Positions 1,575 to 7,921 of a stretch of 7,921 nt of DNA are shown piece after piece (the first letter of the stretch is position 1; each line of letters opens with the position of its first letter). The stretch lies in assembly GCA_016928395.1 (NCBI GenBank), contig JAFGKV010000267.1, forward strand, positions 1 through 7,921. The letters run 5' to 3'. The position numbers were made by a program, and so were the translations under genes. The notes below the pieces were generated by a model. That model ran no database searches and had not been told where the DNA came from. It worked only from the letters and a program-made list of their open reading frames with translations. Origin of the DNA: Candidatus Fermentibacterota bacterium. GTDB taxonomy: Bacteria > JAFGKV01.

Positions 1575-1683
1575 TACGCCCCAGCCTGGCTCGACACTCG
1601 TGAAGCGAACCTGCGGGCCAGAGCTCCTCGATCAGTGAGGGAGTAGAGCCAATCGAGCCTGTGTCGAACGCCGGGAGGATATC

Positions 1684-1932
1684 ATGCGGACGTTTGCAGT
1701 TATTCTGACAGTCATCACCTTTGGCCTGTTGGTCTCTCGCTGCTCGAAGGAGCTGGAGGCGCCGCCGGGGGCGCCGGGGATTGAGGTGACGTCACCGAGC
1801 AGTGGGGATGTGTGGGATTCGGGGAGTTCGCATGAGATTAGATGGACGTCTCAAGGAACCTCTGGTCATGTGAAGATCGATGTGAGCGACGACGCGGGAA
1901 GCACACGGGAGGGGGAGTTCTCCCCGGCATAG
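1684..1932 (+). pseudogene. Truncated lipoprotein-like gene, paralogue of the 3890 gene
   Basis: ATG at 1684 follows a good ribosome site, GGGAGGA at 1673-1679, the same heptamer used by the gene at 3890. The first 76 residues match residues 1-76 of the 650-residue protein at about 60 of 76 positions: a hydrophobic N-terminal segment, Cys20, then SKELEAPPGAPGIEVT and GDVWDSGSSHEI. The match stops at base ~1911; only six further codons (GEFSPA) follow before TAG at 1930-1932. The intact paralogue needs about 575 more codons, and no remnant is seen before 3890. The break coincides with the start of the AbiE module, so insertion with loss of the 3' part is the simplest explanation. A short exported peptide could still be made, but nothing supports a function. 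Pseudogene status is inferred from length and position of the break. Confidence 0.8.
1912..1925. repeat. 14-bp perfect palindrome at the gene-break junction
   Basis: GGGGAG (1912-1917), TT, CTCCCC (1920-1925). It begins at the first base after homology between the broken lipoprotein gene and its paralogue ends (~1911). It could be an element end, an attachment or recombination site, or chance. Confidence 0.5.
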
Positions 1933-2001: not shown

Positions 2002-2814
2002 ATGCAGCGCGAGAGATCGCCGAGCCACCAAACGCTGCGCGATTTCGTTGACGCACTCCAAGCGGAGGGTCGCTACACCTTTGATCGCGCAGAGGCGATG
2101 GCCGTTCTCAAGGTGAGTAGCCCCGTGCTCAAGAAGGCCATGACGCGCCTTGTCGCCAAGCGGCGGATAGCGGTGCCCACGCGAGGCTTCTTCGTGATTG
2201 TGCCGCTGGAGTATCGGGCAGCCGGGGCACCCCCTGCTTCGTGGTTCATCGACGATCTCATGCGCCATCTGGGCAAACCCTACTACGTTGGCGTGCTGTC
2301 AGCCGCGGGGCTTCACGGTGCGGCACACCAACAGCCGCAGGAGTTCCAGGTCGTCACTGCCGTGAGCAGGCGATCAGCGGTGGCGGGCAGATCGCGGATC
2401 AGGTTCTTCGGTAAACGCCATGTCGAACACACGCCTACTGCGGTACTCAAGTCCGAAACGGGGACGATGCGCGTGTCCACGCCAGAAGCCACGGCGATCG
2501 ACCTCCTGCGTTACCTGTCTTCAGCCGGCGGCCTTGGCAATGTGGCGACCGTGCTCGCCGAACTGGCCGAACGGATAGATCCCGCACTTCTCGCCCAGGC
2601 GGCCGCCGACGATGGCGAATTCGCCTGCGCACAACGACTTGGCTACATCCTGGACGCTGTCGATAGCGGAGATCGGGCCGAGGAACTGGCCAAGCTCGTA
2701 GCGAACGCGGACCCTCGGAGGATTCCTCTCGTCCCGGGGCTGCCCACCAGGGGATGTCCTGTGGACCGGCGTTGGCACCTCATCCTCAACGAGCGGGTTG
2801 AAGCCGATCTGTGA
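2002..2814 (+). CDS. abiEi: Type IV toxin-antitoxin system AbiEi family antitoxin / autorepressor
   Basis: A 270-residue cytoplasmic protein from the preferred ATG. Residues ~8-66 form an N-terminal winged-helix segment (LRDFVDALQAEGRYTF, then KVSSPVLKKAMTRLV and a strand ending GFFVIVP), as in AbiEi DNA-binding heads. Residues ~90-150 hold the family hallmark 'YYVGVLSAAGLHGAAHQQP' followed by QVVT, and residues 159-171 hold STPEATAIDLLRY, typical of the C-terminal antitoxin domain. Length is normal for the family. In characterised AbiE systems AbiEi counteracts AbiEii without binding it directly (type IV mode) and represses the operon. It overlaps the toxin gene by the four bases GTGA, so the two are translationally coupled, and the inverted repeat at 1939-1979 is the probable operator. 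All key blocks are intact. The family call is very secure; phage-defence activity is not shown by sequence. Confidence 0.95.
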   Translation: MQRERSPSHQTLRDFVDALQAEGRYTFDRAEAMAVLKVSSPVLKKAMTRLVAKRRIAVPTRGFFVIVPLEYRAAGAPPASWFIDDLMRHLGKPYYVGVLSAAGLHGAAHQQPQEFQVVTAVSRRSAVAGRSRIRFFGKRHVEHTPTAVLKSETGTMRVSTPEATAIDLLRYLSSAGGLGNVATVLAELAERIDPALLAQAAADDGEFACAQRLGYILDAVDSGDRAEELAKLVANADPRRIPLVPGLPTRGCPVDRRWHLILNERVEADL

Positions 2815-3671
2815 TCCAGCGCGCGTTCATCACGGAGTGGAGGAGCAAGGCACCCTGGGCTCTCGACGAACAGGTGGAGCAGGATCTTGTCGTGTCCCGG
2901 GCTCTCGTGGAGCTCTACTCCGAAGAGGTGCTGCGGCGCGGGCTCGCATTCAGAGGAGGGACAGCACTGCATAAGCTGTACCTTGAGGTGCCGGCACGCT
3001 ACTCGGAGGACATCGATCTCGTACAGGTGGAAGCCGGCCCCATCGGCCCCGTGGTGGATGCAATCCGGCGACGGCTCGACCCCTGGCTCGGCGTACCGCA
3101 GTGGAAGCGCGGGCATGGCCGCGTGACGCTCAACTACCGGTTCATGACCGAACCCGAGCCGGTGCAGCAGAAACGACTCAAGGTAGAGATAAACACACGC
3201 GAGCACTTCTCGGTGCTTGGCCTCGTAGTCCGGCGTTTCGATCTTGCGAGCCGATGGTGGAGCAGGCAGGCCGAGATTACCACCTATGCGCTGGACGAGC
3301 TTCTCGGGACCAAGCTGCGTGCGCTCTACCAGCGAAAGAAATGCCGTGATCTCTTTGACTTGTGGATCGCCGCCAGCTGGTCGGATGTGGATGCGAGCAA
3401 GGTTGTGCACTGTTTCCTGCGCTATGTGGGCAATGATGGCCTGCGCGTCTCGCGAGCCGAGTTTGAGGCCAACCTGCACAGGAAGCTCTCCGACCCCCTG
3501 TTTGGACGAGACGTGGAGCCTCTGATCTCCCTGACGACAAAGTGGGATCAGGCTTCGGCTGCCGAGTACGTGTTGACCCATCTTGCACCGCTGTTGCCCG
3601 GGCAACCCTGGAAGGCGAACCCAAAGCCTCCGTCGGTGGTAGGGCGGAACCATGAACATATGTCGAGCTGA
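2811..3671 (+). CDS. abiEii: Type IV toxin-antitoxin system AbiEii family nucleotidyltransferase toxin
   Basis: A 286-residue protein starting at GTG 2811 inside the end of abiEi. It carries the DNA polymerase beta-like nucleotidyltransferase signature of AbiEii: RGGTALHKLYL at 48-58 (nucleotide-binding GG), SEDIDLV at 65-71 (metal-binding D67 and D69), KVEIN at 124-128 (E126 as third acidic residue) and the AbiEii-specific block at ~160-185 containing ELLGTK, R175 and RDLFDLW. All catalytic blocks are present, so the toxin is predicted active. In studied homologues AbiEii-type enzymes use NTPs to modify an RNA target and stop growth until AbiEi is restored; the substrate here cannot be read from sequence. 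It is co-transcribed with abiEi. The last ~20 residues are less family-like and rich in P, N and S. A long antisense frame over this gene (2643-3659) has no recognisable family and is treated as a shadow. Confidence 0.95.
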   Translation: MIQRAFITEWRSKAPWALDEQVEQDLVVSRALVELYSEEVLRRGLAFRGGTALHKLYLEVPARYSEDIDLVQVEAGPIGPVVDAIRRRLDPWLGVPQWKRGHGRVTLNYRFMTEPEPVQQKRLKVEINTREHFSVLGLVVRRFDLASRWWSRQAEITTYALDELLGTKLRALYQRKKCRDLFDLWIAASWSDVDASKVVHCFLRYVGNDGLRVSRAEFEANLHRKLSDPLFGRDVEPLISLTTKWDQASAAEYVLTHLAPLLPGQPWKANPKPPSVVGRNHEHMSS

Positions 3672-3809: not shown

Positions 3810-3889
3810 TGGTATCGTAATGTGGTGCGACGGTGTGGCCGACTGCCACCAGCTAGCGTCGGGCCAAGTCTGAACAACGGGAGGATGTA

Positions 3890-5842
3890 ATGAGAGCTCT
3901 TGGAATCATTGCCGCCGTCATCGCGGTTGGGCTGCTGATGTTTCGCTGCTCCAAGGAACTGGAGGCACCGCCGGGAGCGCCGGGGATTGAGGTCACAGCA
4001 CCGACCAGGGGAGACGTGTGGGATTCGGGGAGTTCGCATGAGATTGTCTGGACGTCGGAAGGGACGTCGGGTCACGTGAAGATCGATGTAAGTGACGATG
4101 CGGGGAGCACATGGGAGACGTTGGTCGCTTCCACCGACGATGATGGTGGTCATCCGTGGACGGTGCCGGACATGGCGTCTGGCCTGTGCCGGATCAGAGT
4201 AGCCGACACGGATGGGACGCCCTCAGCGTTAAGCGATACGTTTGCGATCGCGGGGATCTCCGTGGTCACACCAGCCGCGGGAGCAGTCTGGGCGGTCGGC
4301 GCCACTGAGGAGATCCGGTGGAGTTCGTATGGAGTCTCTGACAGGGTGAATCTGGAGGTCAATCGAGGCGGCAACTGGGTTGCTGTCGCCGATTCGGTTC
4401 AGAACACCGGGTCATATTTCTGGCTGGTATCCGGCCCCGAGGCCGGCAACGGGATGATTCGCGTATCGGATGTGGACGGGAGTTTCTCGGGCATGAGTGG
4501 GGCCTTTGCGATCCGGGAGCCGTACATCACGGTGACGGCGCCCGGAGCTGGAGATACATGGGTGGTGGGGACGAGCCGCGAGGTCATATGGACGAGCCTG
4601 GGTGCATCGGGATCAGTCGATGTAGCTGTCAGCTATGACAACGGGGCAGGCTGGAGCACGATCGCGTCCGGAGTTGCCGACAACGGAAGCAGAGCCTGGA
4701 CGGTCTCGGGCCAGGCCTCGAGCATGTGCAGGGTGCGGGTTCGCGATGCAGATGGAACTCCTGAAGGCCTCAGCGGCCTTTTCACCATCCACCTGCCCGC
4801 TCCGGACATCACGATCGCCCCAGCGAGTCTGACGCTGAGTATTTTTCAGGGGGCGAGCGTGGACACGGCGATTGTGGTGGCGAATTCCGGTGACGCGCCC
4901 TTGCAGGTCACCTCGATCACGGACAACGCCACGTGGTTGACTGCGGCACCGGCAAACTTCACTGTCGCGGTGGGATCCAACCAGAACGTGACAGTGACGG
5001 TCAACACGGCGGGTCTGGCCTACGGCCAGCACAACGCAACCATCACCATCGCCAGTAACGATCCGGAAGAGGGGCAGGTGGCCGCGCCGGTGAGCCTGAC
5101 CGTTCAAGAACCTCTCCTCGACATGGTCTCCCTGTCGGGCGGAACCTTCCAGATGGGGTCGACGTCGCAGTGGGCGGACTCGGACGAGCAGCCGGTGCAC
5201 ACGGTGACGGTGAGTTCGTTCTACATGTCGAAGTATGAGGTGACGCAGGCGCAATATCAGGAGGTGATGGGGACGAACCCGTCGTACTTCCAAGGTGCGA
5301 ACCGGCCGGTGGAGCGGGTGACGTGGTATGATGCTGCTCGGTTCTGCAACGCGTTGAGCGTGAGCGAGGGGTTGACGCCGTGCTACAATGAGAGCAACTG
5401 GAGCTGCACCTTCTCGGCGAACGGGTATCGGTTGCCGACGGAGGCGGAGTGGGAGTATGCGTGCCGTGCGGGGACGACGACAGACTACTACAACGGGAAC
5501 GAGACGCAGAGTGGCTGCAGTCCGATTGATCCGAACCTGAATCTGATCGGGTGGTACTGCGGGAATGCCAACAACCAGACGCATGACGTGGGAGGGAAGC
5601 AGCCGAACTCGTTTGGGTTGTACGACATGAGCGGGAACGTGTGGGAGTGGTGCAATGACTGGTATGGGAGCTACTCCTCGGGGTCGCAGACTGATCCGAC
5701 GGGGCCAAGCAGCGGTTCCTACCGGGTGCTCCGCGGCGGCCGCTGGTACGACTACGCCCAGTGCTGCCGCTCGGCCAATCGGTTCTACAACTCGCCCGGC
5801 GGCAGCAGCCGCTACGACGGGTTCCGTCCCGTCCGAGATTAG
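3890..5842 (+). CDS. Modular lipoprotein-like protein with C-terminal FGE-like/C-type-lectin domain; probable DGR variable protein
   Basis: 650 residues; ATG 3890 follows GGGAGGA (3879-3885). Residues 1-20 are a hydrophobic export signal ending at Cys20, a possible lipoprotein site although Arg19 before the Cys is atypical. Three related ~90-residue repeats follow (31-121, 122-209, 211-301), each with 'G.(V/T)W..G...EI.W.S.G.SG.V...VS.D.G..W' and a closing 'R(I/V)RV.D.DGTP..LS..F.I', resembling Kre9/Knh1-type beta-sandwich repeats. Residues 304-406 are a BACON-like module close to that of the first gene. Residues 411-650 are an FGE/SUMF1-type fold: GGTFQMGS, YEVTQAQYQEVMG, RPVERVTWYDAARFCN, YRLPTEAEWEYACRAGT, GLYDMSGNVWEWCNDWYG and the terminal RVLRGG..........CRSANR........GFRPV. 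True FGE enzymes have a reactive cysteine pair near the C-terminus; that arrangement is not evident, so ligand display rather than sulfatase activation is likely. The terminal block is the usual location of the variable region in FGE-type DGR targets, and the DGR enzymes lie 660 bases downstream. Confidence 0.88.
   Translation: MRALGIIAAVIAVGLLMFRCSKELEAPPGAPGIEVTAPTRGDVWDSGSSHEIVWTSEGTSGHVKIDVSDDAGSTWETLVASTDDDGGHPWTVPDMASGLCRIRVADTDGTPSALSDTFAIAGISVVTPAAGAVWAVGATEEIRWSSYGVSDRVNLEVNRGGNWVAVADSVQNTGSYFWLVSGPEAGNGMIRVSDVDGSFSGMSGAFAIREPYITVTAPGAGDTWVVGTSREVIWTSLGASGSVDVAVSYDNGAGWSTIASGVADNGSRAWTVSGQASSMCRVRVRDADGTPEGLSGLFTIHLPAPDITIAPASLTLSIFQGASVDTAIVVANSGDAPLQVTSITDNATWLTAAPANFTVAVGSNQNVTVTVNTAGLAYGQHNATITIASNDPEEGQVAAPVSLTVQEPLLDMVSLSGGTFQMGSTSQWADSDEQPVHTVTVSSFYMSKYEVTQAQYQEVMGTNPSYFQGANRPVERVTWYDAARFCNALSVSEGLTPCYNESNWSCTFSANGYRLPTEAEWEYACRAGTTTDYYNGNETQSGCSPIDPNLNLIGWYCGNANNQTHDVGGKQPNSFGLYDMSGNVWEWCNDWYGSYSSGSQTDPTGPSSGSYRVLRGGRWYDYAQCCRSANRFYNSPGGSSRYDGFRPVRD
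5705..5842 (+). other. Predicted DGR variable region (VR)
   Basis: The last ~46 codons of the FGE-like gene. In residues 618-643 most codons are NNC (TAC, GAC, TAC, TGC, CGC, TTC, TAC, AAC, GGC, AGC, CGC, TAC, GAC), which is what results when AAC and AGC codons of a template repeat are adenine-mutagenised. Fixed anchors are RGG.W, CRSANR, P and GFRP, as in other FGE-type VRs. Codon choice changes abruptly at ~5703: upstream glycine codons are mainly GGG and third-position G is common, whereas inside the region GGC and third-position C dominate. The GC-rich 3' end GGGTTCCGTCCCGTCC (5819-5834) is a candidate for the IMH (initiation of mutagenic homing) segment. No template repeat is visible in the window to confirm the exact limits; the core variable span is 5741-5818. 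Confidence 0.75.
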
Positions 5843-5882: not shown

Positions 5883-5978
5883 GCGCGAGGTCGGGATGCG
5901 AGCCGGCCTGCCTGCCCTGCCTCTGGCAGGCGGCAGGCAGGCAGCGAAGCGGCGCCGGCGGGCATCCCGACCTCGCGC
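5883..5978. repeat. 96-bp compound palindrome downstream of the VR
   Basis: GCGCGAGGTCGGGATGC (5883-5899) pairs perfectly with GCATCCCGACCTCGCGC (5962-5978). After two mismatches GCCGGC (5902-5907) pairs with GCCGGC (5954-5959). Within this, CTGCCTGCC (5908-5916) pairs with GGCAGGCAG (5932-5940) and CTGCC (5917-5921) with GGCAG (5925-5929). It starts 41 bases after the stop codon of the target gene. It may be a REP-like element, a terminator-like structure, or the hairpin seen downstream of the VR in some DGRs. Confidence 0.8.
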
Positions 5979-6085: not shown

Positions 6086-6214
6086 CTGTAGGAGCGTCGT
6101 CAGGCGCGAACGGCTCATCCCTTTGGGAAAGGGGGAGGGGGGGGGATTGGGCCGAAACCCTCCCAACCTCGCTTTTGCGAAAGAGAGGAGCTGTTAGAGC
6201 GTCGTCAGTCGCGA
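6086..6214. repeat. Pair of 24-base direct repeats, 105 bases apart
   Basis: 6086-6109 and 6191-6214 share 21 of 24 bases, with the identical core GAGCGTCGTCAG followed by one varying base and CGCGA. Between them is a CCCTTT/AAAGGG hairpin (6119-6124 with 6128-6133), a run of G5-A-G9 (6131-6145) and an imperfect CTCGCTTT/AAAGAGAG-like dyad near 6168-6187. The repeated unit points to a dispersed intergenic repeat family. Confidence 0.6.
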
Positions 6215-6215
6215 C

Positions 6216-6230
6216 GAGGGCGAAGCCCTC
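6216..6230. repeat. Short perfect hairpin
   Basis: GAGGGC (6216-6221), GAA, GCCCTC (6225-6230), immediately after the second copy of the 24-base repeat. Confidence 0.55.
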
Positions 6231-6278
6231 TTTGGAGTGCGCAGGCTTGCCCGCGCTTTGTGTAGCGGAAGTTTGCCA

Positions 6279-6349
6279 CAGCACCTTCTCATGCGGCGCA
6301 TGAGCGGAAGTGAATGCGCAGTGTGGCGGGATTCCGCGCGAAGGTGCTG
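6279..6349. repeat. Nested palindrome
   Basis: CAGCACCTTC (6279-6288) pairs with GAAGGTGCTG (6340-6349). Just inside the left arm TCATGC (6289-6294), GGC, GCATGA (6298-6303) forms a second hairpin. This gives a branched structure, as in small non-autonomous repeat elements. Confidence 0.6.
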
Positions 6350-6372
6350 GACTGCCGCTCCCGCTGCTGAAC

Positions 6373-6390
6373 GCGGTGGCAAGCCACCGC
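6373..6390. repeat. Short perfect hairpin
   Basis: GCGGTGGC (6373-6380), AA, GCCACCGC (6383-6390), followed by GCACTTCACACAAGG. The sequence at 6232-6262 looks like a degenerate inverted copy of the same GC-stem plus GAGTGC/TTTGTG flank. Confidence 0.55.
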
Positions 6391-6431
6391 ACTTCACACA
6401 AGGAGCGCGGTAAGGCGCGAAGATGCGGTTC

Positions 6432-6504: not shown

Positions 6505-6966
6505 ATGCCGGTACGAATCCTGACGGTGCGCTTTGACAGGGGCCGCGAGGTTTTTGATGACAGCGAGCTCCAGGCGTTCCTGCTGAACAAGCGGGTGGGC
6601 AGGGTCGAGACGGCGTTCTTTCACGTTGATGGGTCGCCCTACTGGTCACTTTTGATCGAGTACGACGAGGTGTTGGAACGCGCTACCGCTCAGACCGACG
6701 AACTCGGGGAAGCGGAACGGTTGCTGCTTCAACGGCTCCGGGAGTGGCGAAAGGCCACGGCCGATGCCGAAGGCGTTCCCGCCTACTTCATCGCGACCAA
6801 TAGCCAGCTCAAAGAAGTCGCGGTGCGCTCGCCGATCTCCCGCGAGTCGCTGAAAGGCATACGAGGATTCGGTGCGCGGAGAATGGAACGATACGGCGAC
6901 AAGATCCTCGATCTGGTGAAGGCATTCCTCGACCAGGAGCCGCAGCCAACGACCCATGCGGGATGA
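6505..6966 (+). CDS. HRDC-domain protein, probable DGR accessory factor
   Basis: 153 residues; ATG 6505 has GAGGA (6495-6499) five bases upstream. Residues ~3-55 form a small N-terminal alpha/beta segment (RILTVRF, DDSELQAFL, VETAFFHVDG, YWSLLIEY) that I do not recognise as a named domain but associate with DGR-linked HRDC proteins. Residues ~70-142 are an HRDC (helicase and RNase D C-terminal) helical domain: LLLQRLREWRKATADAEG, VPAYFIATNSQLKEVAVRSP, LKGIRGFGARRMERYGDKIL. HRDC domains bind nucleic acid, and stand-alone HRDC proteins have been noted beside some DGR reverse transcriptases. No helicase or nuclease domain is attached. The gene overlaps avd by 11 bases, so the three genes are one transcription unit. 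A role in handling template RNA, cDNA or the target DNA is inferred. Confidence 0.85.
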   Translation: MPVRILTVRFDRGREVFDDSELQAFLLNKRVGRVETAFFHVDGSPYWSLLIEYDEVLERATAQTDELGEAERLLLQRLREWRKATADAEGVPAYFIATNSQLKEVAVRSPISRESLKGIRGFGARRMERYGDKILDLVKAFLDQEPQPTTHAG

Positions 6967-7318
6967 CTATCCTCTCTTTGTCCACTGGTACAAGCAGTTG
7001 GACTGGATTCTGGATACGGTTGAGCGGTTTCCTCGCAGTTCTCGGTTCACCCTTGGGTCCCGGGTGGCGGATCTTGCCCTGGGGGTCTTGGAATGCATCG
7101 TGGAAGCCATCTACACGAAGGACCGAGCCGCGATCTTGCGGCGCATCAACCTGGATTTGGAGAAACTCAGGATTCTCTTCCGCATCGCGGCCGATAGGAA
7201 GTACATTTCCCTACGTCAACTCGAGTTCATCAGCCAGGGACTCGATGAAGCGGGTCGGATGACCGGCGGCTGGAGCAAACATGAGGCGATGCAACGGGCT
7301 GTTCGAGAGAGTCATTGA
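6956..7318 (+). CDS. avd: Avd-like four-helix-bundle DGR accessory variability protein
   Basis: 120 residues, ATG 6956 overlapping the HRDC gene. The sequence is almost wholly helical: residues ~3-24 (PLFVHWYKQLDWILDTVERF), ~32-53 (LGSRVADLALGVLECIVEAI), ~56-79 (basic, RRINLDLEKLRILFRIAAD) and ~83-103 (YISLRQLEFISQGLDEAGRM), ending GGW and a short basic tail. The length, the P-R-S-S-R-F-T-L-G turn after helix 1 and the closing GRMTGGW are typical of DGR Avd and related four-helix proteins. Avd forms a positively charged pentamer that binds the reverse transcriptase and template RNA and is required for mutagenic cDNA synthesis in the studied phage system. It overlaps the reverse transcriptase frame by 38 bases. 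Confidence 0.9.
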   Translation: MRDDYPLFVHWYKQLDWILDTVERFPRSSRFTLGSRVADLALGVLECIVEAIYTKDRAAILRRINLDLEKLRILFRIAADRKYISLRQLEFISQGLDEAGRMTGGWSKHEAMQRAVRESH

Positions 7319-7921
7319 CTTCGGGAGTCTCAAGGCGGCATTCCGGAGGGCCTTCCAGGGTTCGGGGCGAAGCTATGAGGCGTGCCGGTTCAACTTCCGC
7401 CTTGAGAAGGAGCTCCTGCAGCTGGGAGCAGAACTCGCGAGCGGAACGTACTATCCTGCGCCCCATCGATACTTCGCCGTGCGCGATCCCAAGGAGCGCG
7501 AGATTGCCGTGGCGCCGTTCAGGGATAGGGTCGTCCATCACGCCGTGGTGGCGGCGATGGAACCTGTGTTTGAGCCTTCGTTCATCTACGACTCATATGC
7601 GTGTAGAGTCGGCAAGGGCACCCACGCGGCCGTTCGGCGGGCCCAGCGGTTTCTGCGATGCGCTGGCTGGTTTCTCAAGGGAGATGTCGAAAAGTTCTTC
7701 GAGAGTGTTGATCACGAGATCTTGTTAGAGTTGGTCGCACGCAAGATCAAGGATTCCCCTTTCCTTGATCTCGTCGAACGAATCGTAAGGAACACGAGGA
7801 CCCAGGGGCGCGGCCTTCCTATCGGCAATCTTACCCCAAGTTCACCTCTGATTGAGCGGAAATGGGCGATTTTGAGGGGTGTGGGGCGTGGAAAGCCTTG
7901 TCCCATATTGGGGGGAAGTTC
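7281..7921 (+). CDS. DGR reverse transcriptase, 3' end disrupted and running off the window
   Basis: Frame from ATG 7281 (GGAG at 7272-7275, overlapping avd) stays open for 213 codons to the window edge. Residues 1-185 match DGR-type/group II-like reverse transcriptases: LEKELLQLGAELASGTYYPA (41-60), YFAVRDPKEREIAVAPFRDR (64-83), VVHHAVVAAMEPVFEPSFI (84-102), YACRVGKGTHAA (106-117), WFLKGDVEKFFESVDHEIL (130-148) with the first catalytic Asp at 135, and GLPIGNLT (178-185). In the family the last block continues as SQ..AN.YL and then a YxDD active site. Here it changes to PSSPLIERKWAILRG and stays unlike the family. The other two forward frames after 7835 hit stops within about five codons and do not restore the motif, so this is a junction with foreign DNA, not a simple frameshift. 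The enzyme is therefore predicted to lack its catalytic YxDD block unless the window edge is chimeric. Confidence 0.88.
   Translation, partial: MRRCNGLFERVIDFGSLKAAFRRAFQGSGRSYEACRFNFRLEKELLQLGAELASGTYYPAPHRYFAVRDPKEREIAVAPFRDRVVHHAVVAAMEPVFEPSFIYDSYACRVGKGTHAAVRRAQRFLRCAGWFLKGDVEKFFESVDHEILLELVARKIKDSPFLDLVERIVRNTRTQGRGLPIGNLTPSSPLIERKWAILRGVGRGKPCPILGGS
7836..7921. mobile_element. Unrelated sequence replacing the RT 3' part; possible element end
   Basis: From 7836 the sequence no longer codes for reverse transcriptase. It contains CCAAGTTC at 7836-7843 and GGAAGTTC at 7914-7921, two copies of AAGTTC 78 bases apart in direct orientation, and is G-rich between. Repeated short motifs near an end occur in some insertion sequences (for example IS21-like termini), but no transposase, complete inverted repeat or target duplication is visible because the window stops. 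Confidence 0.3.

Follow-up and report, generated by a model that had tools for sequence, protein, structure and literature searches.

An HRDC- and Avd-bearing diversity-generating retroelement in a Candidatus Fermentibacterota bacterium, with a reverse transcriptase gene apparently interrupted by a mobile element

A diversity-generating retroelement (DGR), a cassette that introduces random changes into part of a gene for a surface protein, was identified in the genome of a Candidatus Fermentibacterota bacterium, within a stretch of 7,921 nt (hereafter the window) that makes up the entire contig C334 of a 4.79 Mb assembly in 343 contigs. The locus is a genuine bacterial DGR of a sub-type carrying an extra nucleic-acid-binding protein with an HRDC domain, a sub-type that is widespread yet little described. 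The combined evidence makes it very probable that this is a cellular DGR arranged as target gene (with variable repeat, VR), HRDC, Avd, reverse transcriptase (RT) and template repeat (TR), that the RT gene has been interrupted by a mobile element, and that HRDC is an extra factor added once. The other half of this cassette (DGR1) was found on contig C213, which holds the remaining RT followed by the TR; the two contigs were joined on the basis of shared termini, a target-site duplication, frame continuity and the TR/VR match.

Open reading frame and family searches placed the HRDC gene at 6505-6966, the Avd gene at 6956-7318 and the RT gene from 7281 in the order of the operon. The original prediction, made from the window alone, had described three overlapping genes with overlaps of 11 and 38 bases, and all of its coordinates proved correct (HRDC/Avd, 11 bp; Avd/RT, 38 bp). 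Profile searches likewise matched all three families that it had named, i.e. HRDC, Avd-like and DGR-type RT. It had further placed the operon 660 bases after a gene for an FGE-like protein, the usual target type; the measured gap between the end of the FGE gene (5842) and the HRDC start is 662 bp, and it is this FGE protein that the DGR targets. Between the two genes, at window positions 6086-6420, an intergenic repeat of 24 nt (CTGTAGGAGCGTCGTCAGGCGCGA-like) occurs three times, and closely similar motifs were seen on contigs C111 and C213.

The target gene (3890..5842, forward strand) encodes a putative lipoprotein of 650 aa that combines Ig-like/choice-of-anchor-D repeats with an FGE-sulfatase (C-type-lectin-like) domain at its C-terminus (PF03781, 189 bits, residues 411-649), the latter containing the variable repeat. 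This repeat, VR1 (5713..5838, forward strand), lies within the last 43 codons, at the C-terminus of the C-type-lectin-fold/FGE target, ends 4 nt before the end of the gene and is still in frame. Over its 126 nt it aligned to TR1 at C213:4915-5040 (minus strand), which lies 245 nt 3′ of the RT stop and is rich in AAC codons. The two copies differed at 18 sites, every one of them a TR adenine (8 A>T, 8 A>G, 2 A>C), a result with a chance probability of ∼6e-11 given 34 adenines among the 126 sites and mismatches assumed to be evenly spread. The cassette has a TR near the RT gene, a VR within a protein gene and mismatches at TR adenines; adenine-only mismatches between TR and VR are the hallmark of a DGR. 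Immediately 5′ of the target gene is an AbiEi/AbiEii toxin-antitoxin pair (1990-2814 and 2811-3671, overlapping by 4 bp). A direct repeat of 246 bp, 80% identical, occupies window positions 1666-1932 and 3872-4117, the former copy being a truncated target N-terminus (82 codons) across the AbiE pair from the target gene, a layout as if AbiE were beside or within a duplicated target gene.

The 5′ part of the DGR RT gene (7281..7834, forward strand) covers residues 1-184/185 and ends within the GxxxSQ motif, with matches to PHROG 1423 (231 bits) and RVT_1 (38 bits). The reading frame in the window runs for 213 aa, with RT sequence only to residue ∼185 and the left end of the mobile element from 7835; the RT continues at C213:5286-5706 (minus strand). 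RVT_1 matches were found at three places in the genome: family positions 8-123 on C334, positions 123-186 at the end of C213, and a near-complete match on C111. Joining the flanks by script, to show the empty site, gave one frame of 324 aa in which the (I/V/L)GxxxSQ and YxDD motifs of DGR RTs are present as IGNLTSQ (within GNLTSQF) and YMDD. The RT does match a group II RT/maturase model, though below its cut-off (90.6 versus 300 bits), as it might if it were a group II intron or retron RT with coincidental neighbors. That origin is extremely improbable, being contradicted by the TR/VR adenine bias, by the SQ motif, by a tree rooted on group II RTs, in which the window RT fell among DGR RTs, and by the best solved relative of its profile, 8ub7 (216 bits; the top-scoring group II RT reached 115 and the top-scoring retron 36). 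This entry, titled “Reverse transcriptase”, we take to be the RT of the Bordetella BPP-1 DGR. The rooted tree and the 8ub7 match thus agree with the RT type originally predicted, namely DGR rather than group II or retron.

The RT gene is cut at 7834, inside the motif GNLT|SQF, by the end of a mobile element that the original prediction had missed. The left end of this element (7835..7921) carries the terminal inverted repeat CCCAAGTTCACC, and the contig stops within the element; C213 (minus strand) opens with the right end, ...GGTGAACTTGGG, a perfect complement of CCCAAGTTCACC over 12 bp. At the junctions, RT homology on C334 ends in ...GGCAATCTTAC and is followed by CCCAAGTTCACC..., and C213 (minus strand) reads ...GGTGAACTTGGG followed by TTACGAGCCAGTTTCTC.... 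A 4-bp target-site duplication, TTAC, is found at 7831..7834, with its second copy at C213:5707-5710. Because the 12-bp inverted termini and the TTAC duplication, both features of an insertion sequence or transposon, accompany a single joined frame, we read the interruption as a transposon-like element within the SQ motif; roughly 90% of DGR RTs conserve this motif (PMC3521204). The insertion sequence family was left unnamed since searches of the element's own genome and of plasmids gave no second copy, and those of 97 other genomes no full match. A 28-nt match in genome G082 lay inside an unrelated membrane-protein gene, a match to CCCAAGTTCACC on contig C109 was coding sequence, and both were dismissed.

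DGR1 as assembled is probably inactive; its RT gene is interrupted within a DGR signature motif, and the cassette therefore probably stopped diversifying recently. The interruption may also be polymorphic in the population. In a stronger form of this doubt, the interruption would reflect misassembly or a variant carried by a minority, leaving DGR1 intact and active in most cells. Consistent with that, the assembly is fragmented, each element end occurs once with the interior not assembled, and VR1 remains in frame and differs from TR1 at adenines only. Nevertheless, inverted termini that match perfectly over 12 bp, together with a duplication of 4 bp, at two independent contig ends and in the same codon, are the trace of a transposition, and the assembly holds no uninterrupted copy, with RT matches in only the three places listed above. 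We therefore consider an artefact or minority variant unlikely and retain the reading of an interrupted RT gene.

A second cassette, DGR2, was found in the same genome, with an FGE target and HRDC gene at the end of contig C318 and the start of C111 carrying an RT and TR, the middle being unassembled; no interruption was seen in its assembled parts. TR2 and VR2 differed at 15 positions, all 15 of them adenines, while the cross-pairs between cassettes had 27 and 32 differences, with 12 at non-adenine sites in each. Since each cassette's own pair differs at adenines only and the cross-pairs do not, DGR1 and DGR2 are private TR/VR pairs. The host seemingly lost one DGR to a mobile element and kept another, private cassette. 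FGE-like genes on contigs C291, C28, C51 and C102 are not established targets of TR1 or TR2; where they could be aligned, their VR regions have many non-adenine mismatches. Two of them near contig ends (L027 on C291, 119-300, and L028 on C28) have VR-like ends matching neither TR at adenines only, and a third TR may exist or have been lost. No DGR-type HRDC protein was found in the host's one same-genus and one same-family genome.

The second gene of the operon (6956..7318, forward strand) encodes a 120-aa accessory variability determinant (Avd). It exceeded the cut-offs of both Avd-specific models, NCBIfam NF033474 DivGenRetAVD (94.6 bits, cut-off 80) and PF22296 bAvd (69 bits, cut-off 40), matched the Avd family phrog_3206 and had a profile match to 4dwl (Bbp7; E 0.018). 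The 23S-rRNA intervening-sequence protein model PF05635 scored 16 bits, below its cut-off of 33.8, so that the Avd-like assignment first made for this 120-residue protein held. Where nearly all of 16 aligned Avd proteins have D, the window Avd has G (LALG for LALD), a change that may mark the onset of decay once the RT was lost.

Relatives were collected by an RT scan using one genome per species, which gave 80 loci whose neighbors were typed with profiles made from the window proteins. Rows of the first tree comprised 48 Avd-only cassettes, 20 with HRDC and Avd (window included), four with HRDC only, 12 showing neither gene and one truncated at a contig end. HRDC beside Avd had originally been called a minority arrangement; this is true in general but not among the nearest relatives of the window RT, for which HRDC+Avd was the rule (20 HRDC+Avd and four HRDC-only cassettes). 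The gene order of the window recurs in relatives, and most relative loci had A-specific TR/VR pairs. Wherever a TR was found in an HRDC+Avd cassette, it lay 3′ of the RT or overlapped its end. The further claim that Avd and RT are the core of all DGRs was too strong, as HRDC DGRs without Avd were seen at five loci (L036, L101, L107, L124 and L253). None of 80 related viral RT loci, selected by RT, contained HRDC.

In the group II-rooted tree, HRDC-bearing RTs formed one group inside the Avd-bearing DGRs (SH-aLRT 99), and in a bootstrapped tree a single branch with support 100/100 set 28 HRDC RTs and L067 apart from 36 RTs without HRDC. Across ∼90 sampled DGR RTs, every HRDC cassette fell on one side of the 100/100 branch; most keep Avd, and the HRDC-only members occupy one or two places inside the group. 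The simplest reading of these trees would be one gain of HRDC beside Avd, followed by one or two losses of Avd. Because the group is mostly Avd-bearing, with the Avd-less members nested, HRDC appears to have been added to an Avd-bearing DGR and is no simple Avd substitute. The trees were built without Treponema denticola DGR RTs and sampled by likeness to the window RT, and HRDC DGRs far from that RT may therefore be missing.

The HRDC protein itself (6505..6966, forward strand; 153 aa) has an N-terminal beta-alpha-beta-beta domain (residues 1-58) and an HRDC domain (residues 74-138; PF00570, 72 bits, E 4e-20). AlphaFold2 gave a mean pLDDT of 90 for the entire protein; the N-terminal domain by itself reached 95. 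The best Foldseek match of the model was the E. coli RecQ HRDC domain, 1wud. The N-terminal domain alone had no Foldseek match below E 0.001; in VIA-align it matched mixed small alpha-beta sheets (ACT-like, dodecin, MinE, Alba) with Z≤5.2. All 18 aligned relatives had PF00570 and shared the ∼58-aa N-terminal domain, and all 18 have Y or F in the column equivalent, on the basis of profile alignments, to E. coli RecQ Y555. Mutation of that residue abolishes ssDNA binding by the RecQ HRDC domain (PMC4464074), which also targets D-loops (PMC6773442).

Proteins with the same N-terminal domain were also found in genomes in which no DGR RT was found (G171, G309, G316 and G037). In G316, one such stand-alone HRDC protein, its N-terminal domain of the DGR type (L252:4388-4954), is encoded 16 bp upstream of comM. 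ComM is a branch-migration helicase of transformation. The comM link is clear in G316 and loose in G037, where the end of comM lies ∼1 kb upstream; comM was absent from the 1.5-kb flanks of two other stand-alone members found in that phylum. Stand-alone relatives also adjoin pheT, which points nowhere as to role.

In a DGR, the transcript of the TR is copied by RT and Avd in complex, errors arising at adenines, and the resulting cDNA takes the place of the VR. In DGR1, replacement of VR1 in the FGE target would yield variant surface lectins. The step understood least is how the mutagenized cDNA enters the target, and a long hairpin or cruciform 3′ of VR1 (5883..5978, forward strand; outer stem 5883-5899/5962-5978, 17 bp) is a candidate target-site structure. 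Folded as DNA it had z=−6.2, and a hairpin whose stem differs in sequence (z=−7.1) occupies the matching place at the DGR2 target on C318; each strong hairpin lies ∼45 nt past its VR. The DGR of BPP-1 has a structure-dependent target site at which a hairpin is required (PMC3240598), and both hairpins, as candidates, fit the structure to be expected of such a site. Hairpins of at least 6 bp with a GNA triloop occurred in 12 of 56 post-VR stretches (L096, L099, L077, L105, L138, L126, L062 and others) versus 0.7 expected from random windows, with control loops at 0-1; they are not typical of the HRDC+Avd group. A proposal that HRDC DGRs have stronger target hairpins was weakly supported, as the difference between HRDC+Avd and Avd-only loci was marginal (Mann-Whitney p 0.04, kinship uncorrected).

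We suggest that HRDC is an extra factor that binds single-stranded or branched nucleic acid and joined an Avd-bearing DGR lineage once. The most likely step for its action, although we would put this at somewhat under an even chance, is homing, as the cDNA pairs with its target next to the hairpin. A role at this encounter of cDNA and target is favored because of the Y555-equivalent residue, the D-loop targeting of RecQ HRDC and the comM neighbor; the hairpins 3′ of both VRs were also counted as support. A fuller version is more doubtful still: HRDC would be a factor dedicated to cDNA homing, taken up a single time from a stand-alone bacterial family that handles ssDNA or branched DNA into an Avd-bearing DGR, and it would act at the hairpin-flanked target and later have permitted some lineages to lose Avd.

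It is possible, though we think it rather improbable, that HRDC acts before homing, binding TR RNA or an RNA-cDNA hybrid, aiding RT priming or termination and able to replace an absent Avd. The known role of Avd is in cDNA synthesis, and HRDC lineages can dispense with Avd, since HRDC-only DGRs with A-specific TR/VR pairs exist (L036, L101 and L124); RNase D, an RNA enzyme, also has an HRDC domain. However, HRDC-only cases number just five, and HRDC and Avd are not simply redundant because most HRDC cassettes keep Avd. Less likely again, HRDC may have no role in retrohoming and be a hitch-hiking or regulatory operon gene, as its relatives in genomes without any DGR RT would allow and given that a retrohoming role is inferred. 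Against this, HRDC keeps its position and overlaps in many phyla and is confined to one RT clade behind the 100/100 branch. Returning to the homing role, the gain of a RecQ-type DNA-binding module alongside Avd in one coherent clade, with Avd then lost, would be a natural experiment separating cDNA synthesis from homing.

Among known systems, HRDC and MSL have been named as DGR accessory proteins (PMC10053308), and the accessory protein has been given as “avd or HRDC” (PMC3240598), a shorthand better put as “Avd, HRDC or both”. The prototype, that of Bordetella phage BPP-1 (mtd-avd-TR-brt), which has been reconstituted in laboratory E. coli (PMC12875486), shares with the window an Avd, an RT of the same clade, an adenine-specific TR/VR pair and a hairpin 3′ of the VR. 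It differs in having no HRDC, a phage tail-fiber protein as target and a TR between avd and the RT gene, whereas the TR of DGR1 is downstream of the RT gene. The Treponema denticola DGR, in the parts of its description consulted (PMC4891356), resembles the window in an HRDC gene that overlaps the RT gene and in lipoprotein targets of C-type-lectin type; it differs in having a single accessory gene (HRDC) between TR and RT and a TR upstream of the RT (group 1a), and those parts make no mention of Avd. The closest arrangement is that of plasmid pPAES01 of Prosthecochloris aestuarii DSM 271 (NC_011061), on which the order FGE-HRDC-avd-RT is already annotated (as FGE, HRDC, avd and RNA-directed DNA polymerase), with overlapping accessory and RT genes as in the window. 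Its RT belongs to the same clade as the window RT but to a different sub-branch, and unlike DGR1 the pPAES01 cassette is plasmid-borne, has an uninterrupted RT and is followed by a second FGE gene downstream.
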